37,285 nt of DNA, taken from Eubacteriales bacterium. GTDB lineage: Bacteria; Bacillota; Clostridia; Christensenellales; Aristaeellaceae. Made by a program: the position numbers and the translations under genes. Below, one piece after another: positions 1,300 through 31,400 of the stretch (positions within the stretch are counted from its first letter, which is position 1; each line of letters begins with the position of its first letter). A model generated the notes under the pieces. The model saw nothing but the letters and a program-made list of their open reading frames with translations, searched no databases and had not been told where the DNA came from. The stretch covers positions 1 to 37,285 of the forward strand of contig JAQVQY010000010.1 of assembly GCA_028701335.1 (NCBI GenBank), given 5' to 3'.

Positions 1300-2679
1300 T
1301 TAAAGCGCGACCACCTCCATGCCTGTCATTTCCGCGAAATCGATCATCTGGCGATACAAGTGTTTGCCATATCCGAGGCAACCATATTCGTTGTCCCAGT
1401 TTTTCATCAACTCGTCCACATCGCAATCCACCTTAACAAAAGCGTGGGGCCAGAACGGGATGCCGCACTCCGCCCTTCTTTCATCAATGATATCATCTTC
1501 CGGTTCATAAACCGTGCAGCGCGTAATTACCAGGCGGAATTTCCCGTCCACACGGCTCACCCTGCCAATTACGCCCTCCCCCGCTTTGCAGACGAGGCTG
1601 ACGGACAGTCCGCCGGCGGTTCCTTCTGTGGCGATCCCATGTTGGGCAAATTTGGCGCCATGCTTGTTGGCCAGGGAAGGCGGGCAAGCTCCATCCCCGA
1701 TAATCTTAATTTCCTTGTTCTTTTTGTCCAGATACTGCAGGTCACCATAGTATGTCGGTTCCTGGCTCAGGTATGTGAACAAAATACTGGTCAGGGCTGT
1801 GTTGAAGTCAGAGAGTGTGGAAGTCGGGATGCCCTCATCCAGCATCATGCTCTGCGCAAAACATGTGGCGGTGTAGTCATCCGCGAGGCCGGGGAAGGAC
1901 TGGATGGTGTAGTAACTGAAATTGTACTTGCCCATCAGCTTTTTAAGAGCCAGGTATAGCCGGACAGAGCGCTCTGTCATGGCATTGCGCTCAGGTTCCT
2001 CCACAAACTTCTGCCTGATCACACCAAACGCGCTATCCAGCTCTTCATCGCTGACAGCTTTGGCCGTATCCAGCAGTTCGGTGGTATCACGCGAATCAAT
2101 GTCAATGCCAAAGGTCTTCATCCACTGCGCGGGATCGGCCACGCCGCAGGTTTGCCCCATCCCCCGGCCTCCAAACGCAGCTATGGTGGTCATGTTGATG
2201 CGGTTCTTTACGGCAGATGCCTGGCAGTAACTCACGACAGATTCCAATGATGTTTCGTCTTCAGCGGCTCCATAGACAAAACGGTGCTTTATACCAATTT
2301 CGTTAAGCGCGGCTTTAAGCACCAAGCCGCCAACAGGACGCCAGCCCTGGGAGCCGGGATAGGTCCACACGATGATTCCCTTGCCGGTTTTCGCGAATTC
2401 GCGCAAGGCGCCAATCATGTTGGATGCCCACACCCAGGTGCCGGAAAACAGAACCAGGCAATCGATGCTGTCATCCTTGGCCATTGGCAGAATCACTTCC
2501 CTGGCATCGTCCTTGGTGGCCACAACCAGGTCATTTTCAACCAGCTTAACGCCCGCGTCAACCAGCGCGCGTTTTGAGCGATCAATAATCGCCTGATCAA
2601 TAAACAGGTCTCCCGAAGGATCTTTCAGCCCATCCTTATGAACCCCGTAAACAACGAAACCTGCAGTTGCCTTAATCAC
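1300..2679 (-). CDS. L-fucose/L-arabinose isomerase-like family protein
   Basis: ORF 1300..2715; likely GTG start at 2679 behind GGAGG with 8-nt spacing ([17 protein letters not shown]...). Overall layout and C-terminal region resemble FucI/AraA-like isomerases. Confidence 0.7.
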
Positions 2680-2721
2680 TTCCTGTACCTCCAAAAATAA
2701 TATTTCTCTATACAAAAACTG

Positions 2722-3777
2722 TCATTCGTCAAAGGCGATGACGAATTCAGTCTTGGAGAGGTATTCCTCTCCGGGATATAGCAGGACATCCGGACGATAT
2801 GCGTCCAGGTTGACCGCATTGGGAAAGCGGCCTGTTTCCAGGCAAACACCCCAGTTTTTCCCGTACACTTTTCCATCTTTCCCGGTGACCTGATGAATGC
2901 CGTTACCAGTATACACCAAAATGCCCGGCGAGTCGGTCATGCACGTAAGTGAAGGCGCGCATTGGCCGTCCGAAAGAACAGCTGCCCGCCGCATGCCCTC
3001 GCCATCCACAAGAAAGTAGTGATCAACGCCGTCCGCGGCGCAAATTTCAGGGTGCTCCTTGTGGGCAATCGCATCCGAGATTTTTTTACCGGCACGGAAA
3101 TCAAGCGGCGTGCCTTCGACTTTCTCAAGCTGGCCCGTAACTATCGGATCCTGCTCGCGGGCGGTCTTTGCGTAACGCTCTGCCATAATGGCCAACTGAT
3201 GATCCCGGCAACTTCCCTGTATCCCGTTCAGGTTGAAATAGCTATGATTTGTGAAGCTGACAGCCGTAAGCTCGCTGCACACAGCATGGTAGTCCAGCGA
3301 CAGGGTCAACGGCGCGACAAGCCGATAGCTCAGGCTTGCTTCCAGCAGGCCCGGAAAACCCAGCTCCATATCCGAGAATTTTCTGTAGAATTTTACGCCG
3401 TCATCCAGGATTTGCCAATCCCATACCTGGCGATGGAAGCCATGCGGGCCGCTGTGCATGCTATCGGGGCCCGCGTTCAAAGGAAGCTGAACCAAGGTTT
3501 CTCCAAGGCTGAACTTCCCGCCGGCCAAACGGTCCGCTATTGGGCCAATAAAAGCGCCGAAAAATGTACTGTCGTTTATGTAGCCCTGCAAACCATCGTA
3601 ACCAAGCACGAGATCCCGTGTAACGCCCTTCCCATCCTCAACCATGAATGCCTGCAGGATTGCCCCAAAGTTGCTTACTGATACCCTCAGGCCGGTTGAT
3701 TCATCCCGGATGTCAAATAAGCGGACCTCCCGGCCATTGGCAGCGCCCCATTTCCTGTGAACGATCCCGATGCTCAT
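2722..3777 (-). CDS. galM: aldose 1-epimerase (galactose mutarotase family)
   Basis: ORF with NHSYFNLNG, GYDGLQGYINDSTFFGAFIGPIADRLAGGKF and LETGRFPNAVN motifs. Confidence 0.88.
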   Translation of the reverse strand: MSIGIVHRKWGAANGREVRLFDIRDESTGLRVSVSNFGAILQAFMVEDGKGVTRDLVLGYDGLQGYINDSTFFGAFIGPIADRLAGGKFSLGETLVQLPLNAGPDSMHSGPHGFHRQVWDWQILDDGVKFYRKFSDMELGFPGLLEASLSYRLVAPLTLSLDYHAVCSELTAVSFTNHSYFNLNGIQGSCRDHQLAIMAERYAKTAREQDPIVTGQLEKVEGTPLDFRAGKKISDAIAHKEHPEICAADGVDHYFLVDGEGMRRAAVLSDGQCAPSLTCMTDSPGILVYTGNGIHQVTGKDGKVYGKNWGVCLETGRFPNAVNLDAYRPDVLLYPGEEYLSKTEFVIAFDE

Positions 3778-4797
3778 TCAAACACCCTTCTTTAATCCTT
3801 GGTTGATGAGTCCCATGAACAAATCGCGGTCTATATGGCCGGCTATTGTATCAGGTACACTTATTGCTTCAGCCGCAAGGCTCGATCCCAGTTCAGGTGC
3901 GGACAGTTCATTGCCGCCCAAAAACGGCAGCCCCATAGCCAAACCGCAGATGATGCCGGAGATATAGGCATCTCCCGCGCCGCCGGTCGCCACAACCTTA
4001 GCAGGCTTTGCCGCAATATGACGGAGTTTGTTCTCTGCCGCGATGAAACTTCCCTGAGCCCCGCAGGTCATAGCCAGCATAATCCCGGGATTTGTTTTCC
4101 GTAATTTCTCATAGCTTGCTTCTGCCAGTTTGCTAAAATCATCGGTTTTCAGCTGACAATAGGCCGCCGCTTCATCTTCATTGATAGCCAGCAAATCCGT
4201 GTTTTCAACGCCGCCGCCGCCAACAAACTCGCCTACCTCATCCAGCAGGAAAGATGAGACACAAAACGCGCCCAGGGCTTTCGCGCTTCTCAATAGTTCC
4301 AGCCTGCTTGCCACCGGCACCTCAGGCACCGCGACCACCAGGGTTCTCCCGCTGACCTGAAAGGGCAGGTTGTCCAGCGCCGTTTGAATGTCGATTTCCG
4401 ACACCAGGGAACTGGCGCTTTGGGATGTGGTTACGTTGCATATTGCCTTATCGGGGTACTGCAAACAGACGCTGTACATTGTCGGCTTTTGCTCCAAACG
4501 CTTTACAAAAGCTGTATCAATGCCCGCGCTTTCCATCTGCTGAAGCAACTCGCCGCCCGCGGAATCCCGCCCGACGGCCCCAATAGCGTGAACAGATACC
4601 TCTGGAGACAAGATGCGGGCCACATAATGAAGGATAATGTGCTGTTTGCAGTAATCCTTTGCCGGGCTCAGCATCGCCAGGCGGGTCTCATTCCGGCTCA
4701 ACGGCCTATTGTCTTCGAACTCGAAAATGATGCCGCTCCCTATTCCCCCCGTTCCAAGGACATGGTCATATTGTGTTTGCATTGCCATGGATGTCAT
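3778..4797 (-). CDS. PfkB/ribokinase-family carbohydrate kinase
   Basis: GAVGRDSAGGELLQQMESAGIDT and C-terminal VVATGGAGDAYISGIICGLAMG signature; GGAGG SD just before ATG 4797. Confidence 0.87.
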   Translation of the reverse strand: MTSMAMQTQYDHVLGTGGIGSGIIFEFEDNRPLSRNETRLAMLSPAKDYCKQHIILHYVARILSPEVSVHAIGAVGRDSAGGELLQQMESAGIDTAFVKRLEQKPTMYSVCLQYPDKAICNVTTSQSASSLVSEIDIQTALDNLPFQVSGRTLVVAVPEVPVASRLELLRSAKALGAFCVSSFLLDEVGEFVGGGGVENTDLLAINEDEAAAYCQLKTDDFSKLAEASYEKLRKTNPGIMLAMTCGAQGSFIAAENKLRHIAAKPAKVVATGGAGDAYISGIICGLAMGLPFLGGNELSAPELGSSLAAEAISVPDTIAGHIDRDLFMGLINQGLKKGV

Positions 4798-5671
4798 TGA
4801 ACCTCCACTCAGGATGCAGTGAAATGGGATGCCTTGCCGTATCTTCCGTGGCGGTCAGCATGGCATCGGGGTGCGATTGCAGCAGGGTCATCGGATACTC
4901 TGTCGTCAGCGGAGAAAACAACGCGACGCGAAGCGCCGTCTGCTTCCAGGCGCCGGTATCGCTGAACAACCTGACCTTTTTTGCGCTCAGGCATTCCTTG
5001 ACGCCCAGCGTGACCGACATGGGCGGCACAAACTGATAGGCCGCGCCGTATGTCCGCTGCGCCAGGGCAATAACGGTGTCCGCGTTGTTTTCCTGGATAC
5101 GGATGGAGGAGTTGCGCAACTGGTCCAATGACAGCTGGCTATAGGGAGCGCGGCGGGCCTGATTATAGGCGATGTGTCCGTCCTGCCCCCAACCCCCCAA
5201 TGTCAGGTCAAGCTCATGCTTATAGATTTCTTCCCGCACAGATTCCATGGTGGCAGGCGACAGGAAAAACCGCTGGTGTTGCGGAACAGCCAGTTCCTTA
5301 TCGATCCCGCCGTAGAAGTGTTTTTCCATAAAACTGCGGAAGTTGTATGGGTCGTCCCGGTGAAGAAGCTTTCCTTCCCAATCCAGGCATTCATCCATAT
5401 GGAATACCACCAGGTTACGCAGGTTGACTCTGCGGGTGTTAACAAGCGTCTCAAAAGGCTTGTACCAGCTGCTTGGCCCGCAGGGGATAATTGCCCGCAG
5501 CATGCGGCCTTCCCTGTTGGCCTGTTCGATCTCTTGCGCAAGCTCTTCAGCCATGAGCCGGCCCATGCTTGCCGAGTCTGCCACCATCCTGAAAGGTATT
5601 TTCCCGTCAGGATGCTTTTCCAGCTGTTCCGCAGGCACGCTGCACCATGTGTACAGTTGCTTGTTGTCCAA
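4766..5671 (-). CDS. NagB-like (glucosamine-6-phosphate deaminase/isomerase superfamily) protein
   Basis: VVFHMDECLDWEGK and LTLGGWGQDGHIAYNQ match NagB core motifs; overlaps the kinase start by 32 nt. Confidence 0.8.
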   Translation of the reverse strand: MDNKQLYTWCSVPAEQLEKHPDGKIPFRMVADSASMGRLMAEELAQEIEQANREGRMLRAIIPCGPSSWYKPFETLVNTRRVNLRNLVVFHMDECLDWEGKLLHRDDPYNFRSFMEKHFYGGIDKELAVPQHQRFFLSPATMESVREEIYKHELDLTLGGWGQDGHIAYNQARRAPYSQLSLDQLRNSSIRIQENNADTVIALAQRTYGAAYQFVPPMSVTLGVKECLSAKKVRLFSDTGAWKQTALRVALFSPLTTEYPMTLLQSHPDAMLTATEDTARHPISLHPEWRFNDIHGNANTI

Positions 5672-5692
5672 TGTTTCCTCCTTGCGCTCGTC

Positions 5693-6868
5693 TCAGATCG
5701 AATAGCGCTGTTTGTTCTTGAAATACATGTCAAACGCGACGGCCACCAGCACAACCAGGCCCTTGATCGCGGACTGCCAGTCGATGGAAACACCCAGCAG
5801 GGACATGCCGTTGTTCAGAACACCCATGATCAGCGCGCCCACCATGACGCCGTATACCGTGCCAGCTCCCCCGCTGATTGAAGCGCCGCCGAGGAAGCAG
5901 GCCGCAACGGCATCCAGTTCGTAGCCAACGCCTGCTTTGGGCGTAGCCGCGTTAAGGCGCGATGTGACCAGGATTCCCGCGAGTGCGGCCATCAATCCGG
6001 AAATGAGGTATACGATAAACATCATGCGTTTTGTGTTGATGCCTGAGAGCTTGGCGGCTTTGATGTTGCCTCCCATCGCGTATAAATGCCGTCCAAATAC
6101 CGATTTCTTCGTAATAAAGGAGAAAATCAGGATCAGCCCAACCAGAACCAGCATGGCAAAAGAGATGCCCTTGTAACCAGCCAGCAGCCAGCAAATGGCG
6201 TTTATAAACAGTGCGAAAATCAGTATTTTCACAATCAGCTGGCCAGTGGATTCCGTAGGAAGGCCATTCTTCTTGTTCCCGTAATGGGAAATCAGCAATA
6301 CCGCCGCCAGGACAAGCGTTCCAGCCGCCCCTATTACCAGGGTCAGCATATGCCGCCCCGTACCCGCGGAAAAGTCCTCAAGAAATCCTGTAGCCAAAAA
6401 CTGATACGCTTCCGGAAATGGCCCGATGGATCTTCCGTTCAGGATAACCTGCGCGAGACCGCGGAAAATCAGGCTTCCCGAGAGTGTTGTGATCCAGGGG
6501 TGCACCTTGACAAACGCAATCCAAAAACCTTGCCAGGCGCCTACCGCCAAGCCGGAAAGAAGGATTAACAAAACGGCTGGCAGGGTTGGCACTTTCATGT
6601 CAACCATCAGGACACCAGCTATTGCCCCGCAGAAAGCGACCACAGATCCCACAGCGAGGTCAATGTTGCCCCCGGTAAGAATGCAAAGCAGCATACCCAT
6701 CCCCAAGACAAAAACATACATGTTTTGGTGGAGCAGATTGCTGACGTTCAGCGGCTTGAGCATAGTGCCCTGTGTGGCGAATTGGAGGACTATGATCAAA
6801 ACCACGAGGGCAAACCCCATGGTATATTCCCGGATATTCGTTTTGGATGAACTCTTTAGTGTTGTCAC
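5693..6868 (-). CDS. Sugar ABC transporter permease (XylH/MmsB-like)
   Basis: Multi-TM protein with GGNIDLAVGSVVAFCGAIAG and HPWITTLSGSLIFRGLAQVILNG, typical of RbsC/XylH permeases; next to ATPase and binding protein. Confidence 0.92.
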   Translation of the reverse strand: MTTLKSSSKTNIREYTMGFALVVLIIVLQFATQGTMLKPLNVSNLLHQNMYVFVLGMGMLLCILTGGNIDLAVGSVVAFCGAIAGVLMVDMKVPTLPAVLLILLSGLAVGAWQGFWIAFVKVHPWITTLSGSLIFRGLAQVILNGRSIGPFPEAYQFLATGFLEDFSAGTGRHMLTLVIGAAGTLVLAAVLLISHYGNKKNGLPTESTGQLIVKILIFALFINAICWLLAGYKGISFAMLVLVGLILIFSFITKKSVFGRHLYAMGGNIKAAKLSGINTKRMMFIVYLISGLMAALAGILVTSRLNAATPKAGVGYELDAVAACFLGGASISGGAGTVYGVMVGALIMGVLNNGMSLLGVSIDWQSAIKGLVVLVAVAFDMYFKNKQRYSI

Positions 6869-6874
6869 GGTGCC

Positions 6875-8413
6875 TTACTCCTTTGAACTCTGAATGATTG
6901 CCGCCATAATGTTTTCCTGTGTAGCCGTTTCACCTGAAACTTCGCCAATAATGCTTCCCTCGTTCATAATGTAAATCCTGTCGCACAGTCCGATTAGTTC
7001 CGCCATCTCTGATGAAATGACCAGGATGTGCTTTCCTTCCAGCGCCAGCTTGTTGATCAGCGTGTAAACCTCATATTTTGCGCCCACGTCAATGCCGCGG
7101 GTCGGCTCATCCATAATCAGGACCTCCGGCTCCGCAAACACCCATTTCGCGAGCATCACCTTTTGCTGGTTGCCCCCCGAAAGATTCCCGACCGCCTGGA
7201 ACAGGTCCGGGGCCTTGATATGGAACTCGTCGCGAAGCTTTTCCGACTCTACCAGCTCCAGGAGATGGTTGACCGTGTGATTGCTGCCAACACGTTCGAG
7301 GTTGGATAGCGTCAGGTTAGTGGTCACGCTCTGGCTAAGGATGAGCCCTTCCCCTTTGCGGTCCTCCGTAACATAGGCGATACTGTGTTGAATGGCCTCA
7401 GCGGGGGTCCGTGCCCGGATCTGTTTTCCATGCAGACGCAGGTCACCTTCAACCGAGGCCCCATAAGTGCGCCCAAAAACGCTCTTGCACAACTCAGTTC
7501 GCCCTGCGCCCATCAGGCCAGCGATACCAACCACTTCCCCTTTTGCGACGCGGATATTGATGTTTTCCAGTTTTTTGCGCGAAGGATTGGCTTCATCACC
7601 CACACTCCAGTTTTCTATCTCGAACAACTTCGTGGGATCAATATCGCGTTCCCGGGGCGGGAATCGCTGGGACAAATCCCTTCCAACCATCCCCCGGATA
7701 ATGCGCTCCTCAGTTACGTCACTATCGTTCAGGAGCGTTTCCACAGTTGACCCATCGCGCAGAATGGTAATTTCATCCGCAACCTTTCGTACTTCATGGA
7801 TTTTATGGGAGATGATGATGGACGTGATGCCCTGCTGTTTAAGGCTCAGGATCAGCTCAAGCAGTTTCTCCGATTCCTCATCATTAAGGGCCGCGGTTGG
7901 CTCATCAAGAATAAGGAGCTTGACGTCCTTGGATAACGCTTTGGCTATCTCCACCAGCTGCTGTTTCCCTACCCCCAGTGTCTGCACCTGCGTGCCGGGA
8001 TCCACATGAAGATTCACGCTTCTCAGCAGTTTATCCGCATATAAATAGGTCTGCGACCAATCCACCACACCTTTGGCGCTGAGACGCTCATTTCCAAGAA
8101 AAATATTTTCGGCAACCGAAAGCTGCGGGATCAGGGCCAACTCCTGGTGGATGATGACTATCCCCTTCCCCTCACTGTCACGGACACCCTTGAATTTGCA
8201 TAGCTCGCCATCAAAATATATATCCCCATCATAGGTGCCATATGGATAAATGCCGCTGAGAACATTCATCAGAGTGGATTTGCCCGCCCCGTTTTCTCCG
8301 ACGATCGCGTGGATATGTCCCTTCTGAGCGCGAAGGCTGACACGGTCCAGCGCTTTTACACCTGGAAATGTTTTTGTGATCTCCCGCATTTCCAGCAACA
8401 CATTGTCAGACAC
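6875..8413 (-). CDS. Sugar ABC transporter ATP-binding protein, two-domain (XylG/MmsA-like)
   Basis: Walker A GENGAGKSTLMNVLSGIYP, second-domain LSGGNQQKVMLAKWV and EPTRGIDVGAKYEVY; likely GTG start 8413 behind GGAGG. Confidence 0.93.
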   Translation of the reverse strand: MSDNVLLEMREITKTFPGVKALDRVSLRAQKGHIHAIVGENGAGKSTLMNVLSGIYPYGTYDGDIYFDGELCKFKGVRDSEGKGIVIIHQELALIPQLSVAENIFLGNERLSAKGVVDWSQTYLYADKLLRSVNLHVDPGTQVQTLGVGKQQLVEIAKALSKDVKLLILDEPTAALNDEESEKLLELILSLKQQGITSIIISHKIHEVRKVADEITILRDGSTVETLLNDSDVTEERIIRGMVGRDLSQRFPPRERDIDPTKLFEIENWSVGDEANPSRKKLENINIRVAKGEVVGIAGLMGAGRTELCKSVFGRTYGASVEGDLRLHGKQIRARTPAEAIQHSIAYVTEDRKGEGLILSQSVTTNLTLSNLERVGSNHTVNHLLELVESEKLRDEFHIKAPDLFQAVGNLSGGNQQKVMLAKWVFAEPEVLIMDEPTRGIDVGAKYEVYTLINKLALEGKHILVISSEMAELIGLCDRIYIMNEGSIIGEVSGETATQENIMAAIIQSSKE

Positions 8414-8434
8414 AGAGTTCCTCCTTGTTTGATG

Positions 8435-8463
8435 GGGGATATGGCACAAATCGCCATATCCCC
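8435..8463 (-). other. Perfect intercistronic hairpin after the binding-protein gene (11-bp stem, 7-nt loop)
   Basis: GGGGATATGGC-ACAAATC-GCCATATCCCC between binding-protein stop (8477) and ATPase SD/start. Confidence 0.82.
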
Positions 8464-8476
8464 GGATATCTGCGCT

Positions 8477-9535
8477 TTATTTCAGCGCGTCGGCGGAGAT
8501 GTAGCCGGAGTCAATCAGCTCCGCTTCATAGTTGTCGATTGTGATAATGATCGCGCTGATGGCCATGGCAGGCACATCAATGGAGCCGTTGTTGTAGTAC
8601 GAATTGGTTTCAACTTCCCCGCCCGACAGGGCCTGCGTTGTCAGATCCACAGCGACCTTCGCCAGGGACGCGGTATTGTTGAAAATGGATGAGTACTGTT
8701 CCCCAGCGATCATGGATTTCACGGAGGTCACTTCGCAGTCCTGCCCGGTAACGATCGGCATACTCATATCGCCGGAGCCGTAGCCCACTGCCTTTAGCGC
8801 TGAAAGGATGCCTATGGACAGTCCGTCATATGGGGCCAGGACGCCATCGCAGGTTTCACCGCTTGAATAGTGTGCGGAAACCAGGTTGTCCATCCGTGCC
8901 TGAGCCTTCAGTGAATCCCAGCCCTCTGTGGCGCACTGGCTCAACTGTGTCTGACCGGAACGCACAACGAGAACACCGCTGTCAAGATAGGGCTTCAGAA
9001 TGTTCATCGCGCCTTCAAAGTAAAGCGGCGTGTTGCTGTCATCAAGGGAACCGGCAAACAGCTCAACATTAAACGGGCCTTCAGCTCCGTCAAGAACGCC
9101 CAGGCCAGTCAGCAGAGATGTCGCCTGCAGTTCGCCGATCGCAATGGAGTCAAAGGTGGCAAAATAATCTACGTCAGGGGAGTTAACCAGCAGCCGGTCA
9201 TAGGCAATCGTTACCACGCCCTGATCCTTTGCGTGCTTCAGGACACTGGTGAGGGTTGATCCGTCGATGGAAGCGATAACCAGCGCGTCCACTCCCCGGG
9301 TCAGCATATTCTCAACCTGGGCGATTTGCGCGTCAACGTCATCCTCGGCATACTGAAGGTCAACTGTGTATCCGAGCGCCTCAAGGCCGTCCTTCAGATT
9401 GTTGCCATCATGAATCCAGCGTTCGCTGGATTTGGTCGGCATCGCGATGCCGACCCGGCCGGTTTCGGCTGTTGCCAGCGTGATCATTCCCACCAGGGAT
9501 AGGGCAAGGAACAGGGCAATAAGTTTCTTCATCAT
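8477..9535 (-). CDS. Sugar ABC transporter substrate-binding protein (ChvE/XylF-like)
   Basis: Signal peptide MMKKLIALFLALSLVGMITLATAETGRVGIAMPTKSSERW; NMLTRGVDALVIASIDGSTL; operon context. Confidence 0.92.
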   Translation of the reverse strand: MMKKLIALFLALSLVGMITLATAETGRVGIAMPTKSSERWIHDGNNLKDGLEALGYTVDLQYAEDDVDAQIAQVENMLTRGVDALVIASIDGSTLTSVLKHAKDQGVVTIAYDRLLVNSPDVDYFATFDSIAIGELQATSLLTGLGVLDGAEGPFNVELFAGSLDDSNTPLYFEGAMNILKPYLDSGVLVVRSGQTQLSQCATEGWDSLKAQARMDNLVSAHYSSGETCDGVLAPYDGLSIGILSALKAVGYGSGDMSMPIVTGQDCEVTSVKSMIAGEQYSSIFNNTASLAKVAVDLTTQALSGGEVETNSYYNNGSIDVPAMAISAIIITIDNYEAELIDSGYISADALK

Positions 9536-9736
9536 TGAGTCTCCTTCGTTTATTAATCATCCAGGCTAAACCCGGAGATTATCCTTTTTGGCAATCGTGT
9601 TGTCGAAAGGTTGCTGAATCATCACAGCTGGATGCATGCGCAAAAAGTGAGCTTGCTCGTTTGCCTCCTTTCAATAGGCCGAATCCTGCAGTATTTTCCG
9701 GCGGGCTCGGCCGTTCTCTTCTGCCGTACGAACATG

Positions 9737-10903
9737 TCAGGCAATTTGTGCAACCAAAGAGTCACTCACATGCCTCATGCCGATAGCGAAACCGCCCAGG
9801 ACACTTGCCTTTTCCTGCAGACTTGAAATTAGGATATTCGGCGGAAAAGGAACATGGTTGGACAAAAGATTCTTCCAATAAGGCGCCAAATATGGACCGA
9901 TGAGATCTCCCAGCCTTCCCCCGATCACAATGAGCTCCACGTTGATAACGGAAACGGCATTAACCAGCATAATCCCTATATGGCTTGCGATCCGCTCGAT
10001 GATTTCCTGTACGGCGGGCATTTTGTTCCGGTTACCGTCGATAAGGCTTCTGAAATCCTGGCCAATTCCAATCTTTGTCATGTCTTTCTGGATCGTGCTG
10101 CCCGATACGAGCATTTCCAAAACACCCTGCTCATCAAATTCGCTTCTTAAGTTGGATTTGCCCGGGACCATATAGCCAACCTCGCCGGCGGCGTTATTGA
10201 CGCCCCTGTACAGTTCGCCGCTTAGTATCAAGGCGGAACCAATACCCACACCATAACTCAGGTATAGAATATCCCTGTGGCCTTTGGCTACGCCTTTCCA
10301 TTTCTCGCCAATGGCGCCCAGATTAACGCTGTTTTCCACTACAACCGGCGCATCAAAGATAGACTTTATACATTTTACAATCCCGTCGATGTCAATGCTG
10401 GACATGAATGGGACGAGAATAAGCTTTCCGGTGTTGGGGTCCATGATGCCCGGCATGCCCAGGCTGAAGTATTTAATCTGTTCCGGCTTTACGCCGGCCT
10501 CCTTAACGGCCGTCAACGCCAGTTCAAGCAGCCGTTCTTCCACGATGTTTTCGCCGTCCAGCGCGTTATAGTCATGTTTTAGGTAAATCAGTTCCTTTCC
10601 CTCAAGGTCGGAAAGCATCACTCTGATCTGGGAACGCCCGATGTCTGAGCCGATGATGTACCCCCAAGTGGCGTTGAACTCAAGCAGTGTGGCTTTCCGT
10701 CCAACCTTGTTATCTCCGCTTCCGGCGATTTTCAGGTAATTGCTCTCAAGAAGTTTTTTTACGTTTGATGAAACGCTCGGGAAGCTGATATCAAGCTTCC
10801 TGGACAATTCCGCACGCGAAACGGGACCGTGCTTACGGACAAAATCCAAGATTACGGTGCGATTATGCACCCCAAGGGTCTCTGGAGTTCCCGGATTCAT
10901 CAT
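9737..10903 (-). CDS. ROK-family transcriptional regulator (NagC/XylR-like)
   Basis: N-terminal winged HTH (HGPVSRAELSRKLDISFPSVSSNVKKLLESNYL) plus ROK domain (GVGIGSALILSGELYRGVNNAAGEVGYM). Confidence 0.92.
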   Translation of the reverse strand: MMNPGTPETLGVHNRTVILDFVRKHGPVSRAELSRKLDISFPSVSSNVKKLLESNYLKIAGSGDNKVGRKATLLEFNATWGYIIGSDIGRSQIRVMLSDLEGKELIYLKHDYNALDGENIVEERLLELALTAVKEAGVKPEQIKYFSLGMPGIMDPNTGKLILVPFMSSIDIDGIVKCIKSIFDAPVVVENSVNLGAIGEKWKGVAKGHRDILYLSYGVGIGSALILSGELYRGVNNAAGEVGYMVPGKSNLRSEFDEQGVLEMLVSGSTIQKDMTKIGIGQDFRSLIDGNRNKMPAVQEIIERIASHIGIMLVNAVSVINVELIVIGGRLGDLIGPYLAPYWKNLLSNHVPFPPNILISSLQEKASVLGGFAIGMRHVSDSLVAQIA

Positions 10904-29145: not shown

Positions 29146-30006
29146 ATGAAAATCGCGTTTATCGGCATCGGCGTCATGGGCCTTCCCATGGCGGAGCACC
29201 TGCTGGCCGCGGGGCATGAACTGAACATATACACCCGCACACGGGAAAAAGCGGAGCCTCTTATCCAGCAGGGCGCCCATTGGTTTGAGGCGATAGCGCC
29301 CTGCGTTGCGGGCCGGGAGGCTGTCATCACCATGGTGGGCTTCCCCAGGGACGTGGAGGAGGTCTACCTAGGCCCAGGTGGCATCCTTAAAAACGCGGCA
29401 AAAGGGGCGCTGGTCATCGACATGACCACCACCAGCCCTGCCCTCTGGGAGCGGATCGCCGGGATGGCCCGTGAAAAAGGCTTAAGGCCCCTGGACGCGC
29501 CGGTGTCCGGCGGCGATGTGGGCGCCCGGGCCGGGACCCTGGCCATCATGGTGGGCGGGGAGGCGGCGGACTTTGAGGCCGCCCTGCCCCTGTTTCAAAA
29601 GATGGGCCGCAATATCGTCCACGAGGGCCCGGACGGCGCCGGCCAGCACACCAAGATGGCCAACCAGATCGCAATCGCGGGCGCTGTGGCGGGGGTAGCC
29701 GAGGCCATCCGCTACGGCGAGGCAACCGGACTGGACCTGAACAAGATGCTGGCCACCATCTCTACCGGCGCCGCCGGCTCCTGGCAGATGTCCAACAACG
29801 GCCCCAAGATGGTGGCCCGGGACCATGCTCCTGGCTTTTTCATCAAGCACTTCGTCAAGGATCTGCGCCTGGCCCACCAGGAAGGCAAAGACCGGAACCT
29901 GAAACTCCCTATCCTGAAACGTGTGCTGAAGCTCTACGCCGCCATGGAAGAGGACGGCAAGGGAGAACTGGGCACCCAGGCGATTATTGAGGCGTATCGG
30001 GAATAG
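29146..30006 (+). CDS. NAD(P)-dependent beta-hydroxyacid dehydrogenase (GarR/3-hydroxyisobutyrate dehydrogenase-like)
   Basis: IGIGVMGLPMAEHLLAAGHELNIYTRT, DAPVSGGDVGARAGTLAIMVGG, GQHTKMANQI. Confidence 0.93.
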   Translation: MKIAFIGIGVMGLPMAEHLLAAGHELNIYTRTREKAEPLIQQGAHWFEAIAPCVAGREAVITMVGFPRDVEEVYLGPGGILKNAAKGALVIDMTTTSPALWERIAGMAREKGLRPLDAPVSGGDVGARAGTLAIMVGGEAADFEAALPLFQKMGRNIVHEGPDGAGQHTKMANQIAIAGAVAGVAEAIRYGEATGLDLNKMLATISTGAAGSWQMSNNGPKMVARDHAPGFFIKHFVKDLRLAHQEGKDRNLKLPILKRVLKLYAAMEEDGKGELGTQAIIEAYRE

Positions 30007-30074
30007 CTGTTTTGCAGGGGTATCAGGATGGCAATCTGCCCTCCCCACTTCTCCTTGTCCTCCGAAATCTCCTC

Positions 30075-30685
30075 CTACGCCTTCTGTAGGCTGTCTGCCG
30101 GCTGAGCGCCAGACACGGCATACTTATTGTTAATGACGAACAAGGGCAACGCTGTGGCGCCCAGTGAGCGGGCATCGGAGAGGTTCTGCTCCAGCTTTTC
30201 CCGGTAGGCATCGCCGCTTGGGATTTCCCGGACTTTCGCCCCGTCAAGCCCCGCCTCTTGTTCCAGGCGGATGATCGTCTCATGGTCACTGATTAAATCG
30301 CCCTGCGCAAAATGGGCCTGGTATACACGCCTGAAAAACTCCGCGTCCTTGCCCTGTTCCCTGGCGTGCTGCAGCACCCGGCGGGCGTCAACCTTGCTGG
30401 CGCTATTGGCGATGTCAGAATTGATGTTAGGGCCATCTTCACGCCCCATATCCGTCACCCGCCGGAAAACCGCCTTGGCTTCTTTCTCCGAAACGCCTTT
30501 CTGTTCAACAAAAGCCCCGCAATAATCCTGGCCGTGCACATATCGGGTGTCCGGACTTAAAAAAAACTCCTGTATTCAACCTGGACTTCGCCGGCATATT
30601 CAAGCCCCTCCAGGGCCTGATTTATGCGGGCCTGTCCGATATAGCAGAACGGGCATACAAAGTCTGACCAGATGGTGATGTTCAC
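30075..30685 (-). pseudogene. DsbA/FrnE-family thiol oxidoreductase, frameshifted at a homopolymer
   Basis: N-terminal frame from GTG 30685: VNITIWSDFVCPFCYIGQARINQALEGLEYAGEVQVEYRSFF* ; after T8 the continuation (SPDTRYVHGQDYCGAFVEQKGVSEKEAKAVFRRV...LFVINNKYAVSGAQPADSLQKA) is in another frame (ORF 30075..30539). Confidence 0.8.
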
Positions 30686-31016
30686 GCGTTTTCCCTCCAT
30701 GGGATCTTCGCCGCGGCCGTCTGCCATTCGCCGGTAGTGTTCAAAATATACCCGCTTCCACCTGGGGCGGGCATTGGCGTAGACGGGACGCCGAAAACCC
30801 GGATGTCATTTAGCGACTTTTTTCAAAAACCTTCAGTATGGCCGTTAAGACAGCAAATAAGCCTCGCGCACATTGATATCATTGGCTTTCCAGCCGTTTT
30901 GGGACTATGCGAAGTATTTGATTGGGGGCTTGCATGTATATAAAAGAGAAGCCCCAAGATGGGAGTTGCGAAATCGCCTCTTCCGGGCCGGGAAATTTCC
31001 CGGGCGCTCCGCGCGG

Positions 31017-31400
31017 CTACCGCACAGGCCCCTCCCCTGTATACCCATACTCCCTGAACATCTCCACGCGCTTTTCCCCTATGCCCTTCACGATATCCAG
31101 ATCCTCAATGTGGCTGAAGGGGCACAGGTCGCGCTGGGTGATGATGGCGTCTGCCAAACTGGCACTGATGCCGGGGAGGCCCATGATCTCCTCCCGGGTG
31201 GCAGTGTTCAGGTTTATCCCATTTTGATTGCCGGATACGGGGCGGGGCTTCATGGATGGAATCGGCGCATTTGCCGCCGTCAGGGTGTTCAGCTGGCTTA
31301 CCCGCCCCTTTTCCGCGATGGCGGATACGGCGATATACCCCGCCAGAAACAAACAGGCGGCAAGCATCACGCAGCCTGCCGCTTGGCGGAACCTTATCAT
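31017..31400 (-). CDS. ComEA-like helix-hairpin-helix protein
   Basis: N-terminal TM and GINLNTATREEIMGLPGISASLADAIITQRDL...IEDLDIVKGIGEKRVEMFREY. Confidence 0.88.
   Translation of the reverse strand: MIRFRQAAGCVMLAACLFLAGYIAVSAIAEKGRVSQLNTLTAANAPIPSMKPRPVSGNQNGINLNTATREEIMGLPGISASLADAIITQRDLCPFSHIEDLDIVKGIGEKRVEMFREYGYTGEGPVR

Follow-up and report, generated by a model that had tools for sequence, protein, structure and literature searches.

An FrnE-type DsbA gene interrupted at a run of eight Ts: a probable recent pseudogene of a laterally acquired thiol oxidoreductase

Introduction

The FrnE subfamily of DsbA, represented by DR_0659 of Deinococcus radiodurans (PDB 5cnw) and the FrnE-type protein SCO1869 of Streptomyces (PDB 3gl5), has a CP(F/W)C active site near the N terminus. 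We analysed a stretch of 37,285 nucleotides (hereafter referred to as the window), the minus strand of which carries a gene with this same active site in the same part of its read-through protein, but differing from DR_0659 and SCO1869 in that its frame is interrupted. A change of frame at a homopolymer is also found in Thermus dnaX, Shigella mxiE and IS elements, which are expressed by slippage, and in mxiE the product with an extra U is the longer protein, as it would be here (PMC1088944). However, the broken gene has eight Ts at the break rather than at least nine, its shift site does not appear to be conserved and any product of it is putative. The locus also resembles the “hypothetical pseudogene or error” class (PMC3711429), in which a lone frameshift has similarity on either side and no conserved shift site; to this pattern it adds further signs of decay and of foreign origin. 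Our preferred reading, to which we attach a probability of about three in four, is that of a recent ordinary pseudogene of a laterally acquired FrnE-type thiol oxidoreductase.

Structure of the gene and family assignment

A first-pass annotation, based on the sequence alone, had described a DsbA/FrnE-like gene interrupted at an 8-nt homopolymer, and this frame break is confirmed. The gene begins with a GTG at 30685, with a Shine-Dalgarno-like GGAGGG (30693-30698) 7 nt before it (the start region reads GGAGGG-7 nt-GTG AAC ATC on the minus strand); an in-frame ATG lies farther upstream, at 30700. The zero frame from this GTG, MNITIWSDFVCPFCYIGQARINQALEGLEYAGEVQVEYRSFF, extends over 42 codons that include the CPFC active site reported for the first fragment, and then meets a TAA at 30559-30557 (N-terminal fragment, 30557-30685). 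The stop lies at a run of exactly eight Ts (30566-30559; context AG-T8-AAGTCC), where the sequence reads GAA TAC AGG AGT TTT TTT TAA GTC, such that the run holds the heptamer U_UUU_UUU and UAA is the next zero-frame codon. The -1 frame after the break begins TTA AGT CCG GAC (LSPDTRYVHGQDYCG) and is open for 161 codons (LSPD...LQKA), with the C-terminal end NNKYAVSGAQPADSLQKA, up to a TAG at 30077-30075 (C-terminal fragment with its stop, 30075-30560). The two fragments joined by read-through make a protein of 203 residues, and the proposal that one extra T, or equivalently a -1 shift, restores the family sequence was borne out.

Both fragments scored above the Pfam cut-off for DSBA (PF01323). 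The N-terminal fragment matched profile positions 2-38 (34.3 bits, E 2.7e-8) and the C-terminal fragment positions 53-189 (64.6 bits, E 1.4e-17), of 191 in all. The presence in two frames of consecutive parts of one profile is far beyond chance. The DsbA/FrnE-like assignment was further upheld by the alignment of the read-through protein, over its whole length, with the structures of DR_0659 (E 2.7e-27) and SCO1869 (E 2.6e-28). The active site and the cis-Pro loop are both present, but are split over the two frames. Many FrnE proteins carry a C-terminal CXXXXC motif, which is absent here, the last Cys being C56 of the C-terminal fragment; this motif is not required, as some intact FrnE proteins do not have it (PMC8945050), and it is likewise missing from the sister sequence from Ornithinibacillus described below. 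The protein of the restored frame is predicted to be a cytoplasmic thiol oxidoreductase of the FrnE-type DsbA family. Judged from its sequence, the gene itself appears to be a relic of a member of this family.

The only other match to the DSBA profile in the genome is a distant intact protein (C10:35759-36367; L003), with about 21% identity. In eight relatives from this phylum (L065, L130, L134, L146, L157, L158, L159 and L160), an in-frame TGA occupies exactly the position of the first Cys in the CPFC-type active site (e.g. WTDFA*PFCYIG), suggesting that these are selenocysteine-containing DsbA/FrnE-like proteins.

Kinship and probable lateral acquisition

The closest sequence found in the genome_contigs set was the intact FrnE-type gene of Ornithinibacillus californiensis (L026), with 53% identity over 201 residues; the search used short exact peptide patterns, and closer relatives may exist. 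In a tree of 75 rows, the broken gene and the Ornithinibacillus protein were sisters (support 100/99) and fell outside the clade formed by the FrnE-like genes of the genus itself. The frame of the sister is open and has no T run at the site (AGCTTTCTTCTTATG). No relative above 36% identity was found in the order, class and phylum samples, and a plasmid search returned many FrnE genes, none of them close (all <60%; best listed 35.7%).

Neither of the two nearest species, G004 and G001, has a copy of the gene; their proteins are 85 and 81% identical, respectively, for HIBADH and 88 and 82% for CysS. DNA similarity to the neighbouring genes in these species breaks off near 30001 on one flank and at 31027/31062 on the other, leaving a segment without similarity (30002-31026) that comprises the broken gene together with some 330 bp of upstream sequence. 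In both species, the two neighbouring blocks are located on different contigs, with other genes next to them. When 30 relatives were searched for this region at the DNA level, only short pieces were recovered (60-62 bp, 77-79%), from the genus's own paralogues. The GC3 of the gene fragments is 0.65-0.67, versus 0.77-0.81 in the flanking genes. Taken together, the kinship with Ornithinibacillus, the absence from the nearest species, the points at which similarity stops and the low GC3 appear to be best explained by a lateral gain in a variable spot.

Elsewhere in the genus, tandem pairs of diverged FrnE-like genes were observed (L005 in G002, L006 in G006 and L009 in G003), but not in this genome. 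A separate block of minus-strand genes in the window (1300-10903), including ABC-transporter-like genes, has a GC3 of 0.59-0.68, versus 0.72-0.84 in the genes after 11610, and may be a foreign island.

Signs of decay

The frame is disrupted with respect to its intact homologues, with a TAA after 42 of 203 codons at a site at which 74 relatives are open. In the tree, the branch leading to the broken gene measured 0.80 changes per site, versus 0.23 for its sister (about 3.5 times longer; the sister branch is less than one third of its length). With each of 13 outgroups, 25-33 private changes were counted in the broken gene, versus 11-16 in the sister, and this excess, about double the sister's count, was found in both halves of the protein. 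The altered conserved positions include H102R, within the DAHR motif, and the helix substitution L156P, and the C-terminal tail after GAQ has eight residues, the shortest of the 75 sequences. Conserved columns were violated at 6/27 positions, as opposed to 3/29 in the sister, a count that is not extreme among 50 sequences and thus lends minor support only. The long branch, the altered conserved residues and the short tail, considered together, favour a relaxation of constraint on the broken gene, although part of the fast branch could reflect adaptation after transfer. Against the pseudogene reading, there is only one clear lesion, the remainder of the 203-codon frame being open and the ribosome-binding site and CPFC motif intact.

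It had also been suggested that an in-frame TAG after LQKA might be a second lesion. The TAG is present, with EEISEDKEKW next in frame. In an ungapped alignment with homologues, it falls at a conserved Leu of the last helix in relatives; with a 4-residue deletion, it lies near the end of this helix, close to where the protein ordinarily ends (cf. ...LNKAAAK in L006 and ...LNKAAGK in L009). Read-through of the TAG leads 46 codons into the antisense strand of the neighbouring gene. The two alignments fit about equally well, though no other tail among the 75 is as short. The TAG may thus be a second lesion, or a shortened tail may end there natively.

Under the pseudogene reading, the ancestral gene, gained by lateral transfer and subject to weak constraint in this lineage, would have specified a thioredoxin-fold protein with a CPFC motif, about 205 residues long. 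We infer that a one-base replication slip in a short T run then cut the frame off at 42 codons, immediately beyond the helix of the active site, with loss of function. Neither fragment should fold as an enzyme: the first would be without the helical domain and the cis-Pro loop, and the second without the CPFC cysteines and with no evident ribosome-binding site. A pseudogene of this kind would matter little, as a further instance of a small genome losing a redox gene that it had gained laterally, but it calls for caution in annotation, as the site should not be annotated as two short DsbA proteins.

Switching, slippage and frameshifting at the T run

The first-pass annotation had favoured a switchable redox protein, dependent on slippage or phase variation, over a dead gene. 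The comparative data do not bear this out. In the alignment, runs at the frame-break site reach six at most among the 49 sequences representing the 74 intact relatives, so the shift site is not conserved among homologues, and the comparison lends no support to a programmed switch. The absence of the gene from the two nearest species and its faster evolution than its sister point in the same direction, and eight Ts are fewer than is usual for programmed T-run slippage (n > 8; PMC3711429).

Phase variation would imply that the length of the run differs between cells, through replication slippage, turning the gene on and off. The location of a homopolymer inside the frame is in keeping with such a mechanism, but a contingency locus would be expected to have a run of more than eight Ts, cytoplasmic redox enzymes are not typically encoded by contingency genes, and the run has not been kept in relatives; we consider this explanation highly improbable.

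In a leaky rescue, the gene would be broken in the DNA while some full-length protein was nevertheless produced, either through the addition of one U by RNA polymerase on U8 or through -1 ribosomal frameshifting on U_UUU_UUU-UAA. The two routes would yield an identical 203-residue product, and the second is not named in the first-pass annotation. The T8 run and the stop are in the right register, an A8 run in apoB gives about a tenth of full-length product by slippage, and a U run is exploited in mxiE (PMC1088944). RNA structure around the T8 run and beyond it is also somewhat stronger than is usual (z about -2.7, a value reached by 3/100 coding stretches), but no structure is evident in the 59-79 nt immediately 3' of this run (z 1.77 and 0.19). 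An Rfam search of the window gave no match. The heptamer U_UUU_UUU is weak in Escherichia coli, in which it shifts much less than A_AAA_AAG (PMC5009743), no comparable run exists in the 49 representatives, and a conserved site is needed to call a programmed case, such slippage having been described for T runs longer than those observed here (PMC3711429). The accelerated branch, moreover, does not suit a needed product. Low-level rescue is possible, but we judge it unlikely. If it were demonstrated, such recoding would be unusual for a thiol-redox enzyme. The stronger proposition, that slippage or -1 frameshifting at U8-UAA serves to make an FrnE-type oxidoreductase, a laterally acquired enzyme kept at a low and possibly regulated level, seems about half as probable as leaky rescue itself.

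Homopolymer runs in the assembly

An error in base calling or assembly would mean that the genome truly has an intact gene, with a run of another length. The draft nature of the genome (166 contigs, 89.5% complete) leaves room for such an error, and lone frameshifts with similarity on either side are often sequencing errors (PMC3711429). We examined the distribution of such runs in the 2.09 Mb of the genome, which contains 41 A/T runs of at least 8 nt (44 overlapping matches), or one per 51 kb. One such run would be expected in a 37-kb window about half the time, and the T8 run is therefore unremarkable in itself. Of the 41 runs, 27 were inspected. Long intact frames contain 21 of these; three fall at the ends of genes or between them, one where two frames of a transposase overlap, and one within a small frame of an operon for ribosomal proteins, which is probably rpmC, judging by its location. 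The T8 run at 30566-30559 is the only one of the 27 to disrupt an ordinary gene. Given that no other ordinary gene is broken at any of the inspected runs, the assembly is unlikely to suffer from homopolymer errors in general, and the accelerated branch and short tail of the broken gene are independent signs of decay. We rate an error at this one site as slightly less probable than leaky rescue, and well below an ordinary pseudogene.

The A8 run located at the transposase overlap (G000 C53, 37858-37865) lies within L111 (1117-2309), in which a helix-turn-helix orfA overlaps an integrase-like transposase frame. This run, which belongs to a mobile element within the same genome, is a likely site of recoding.
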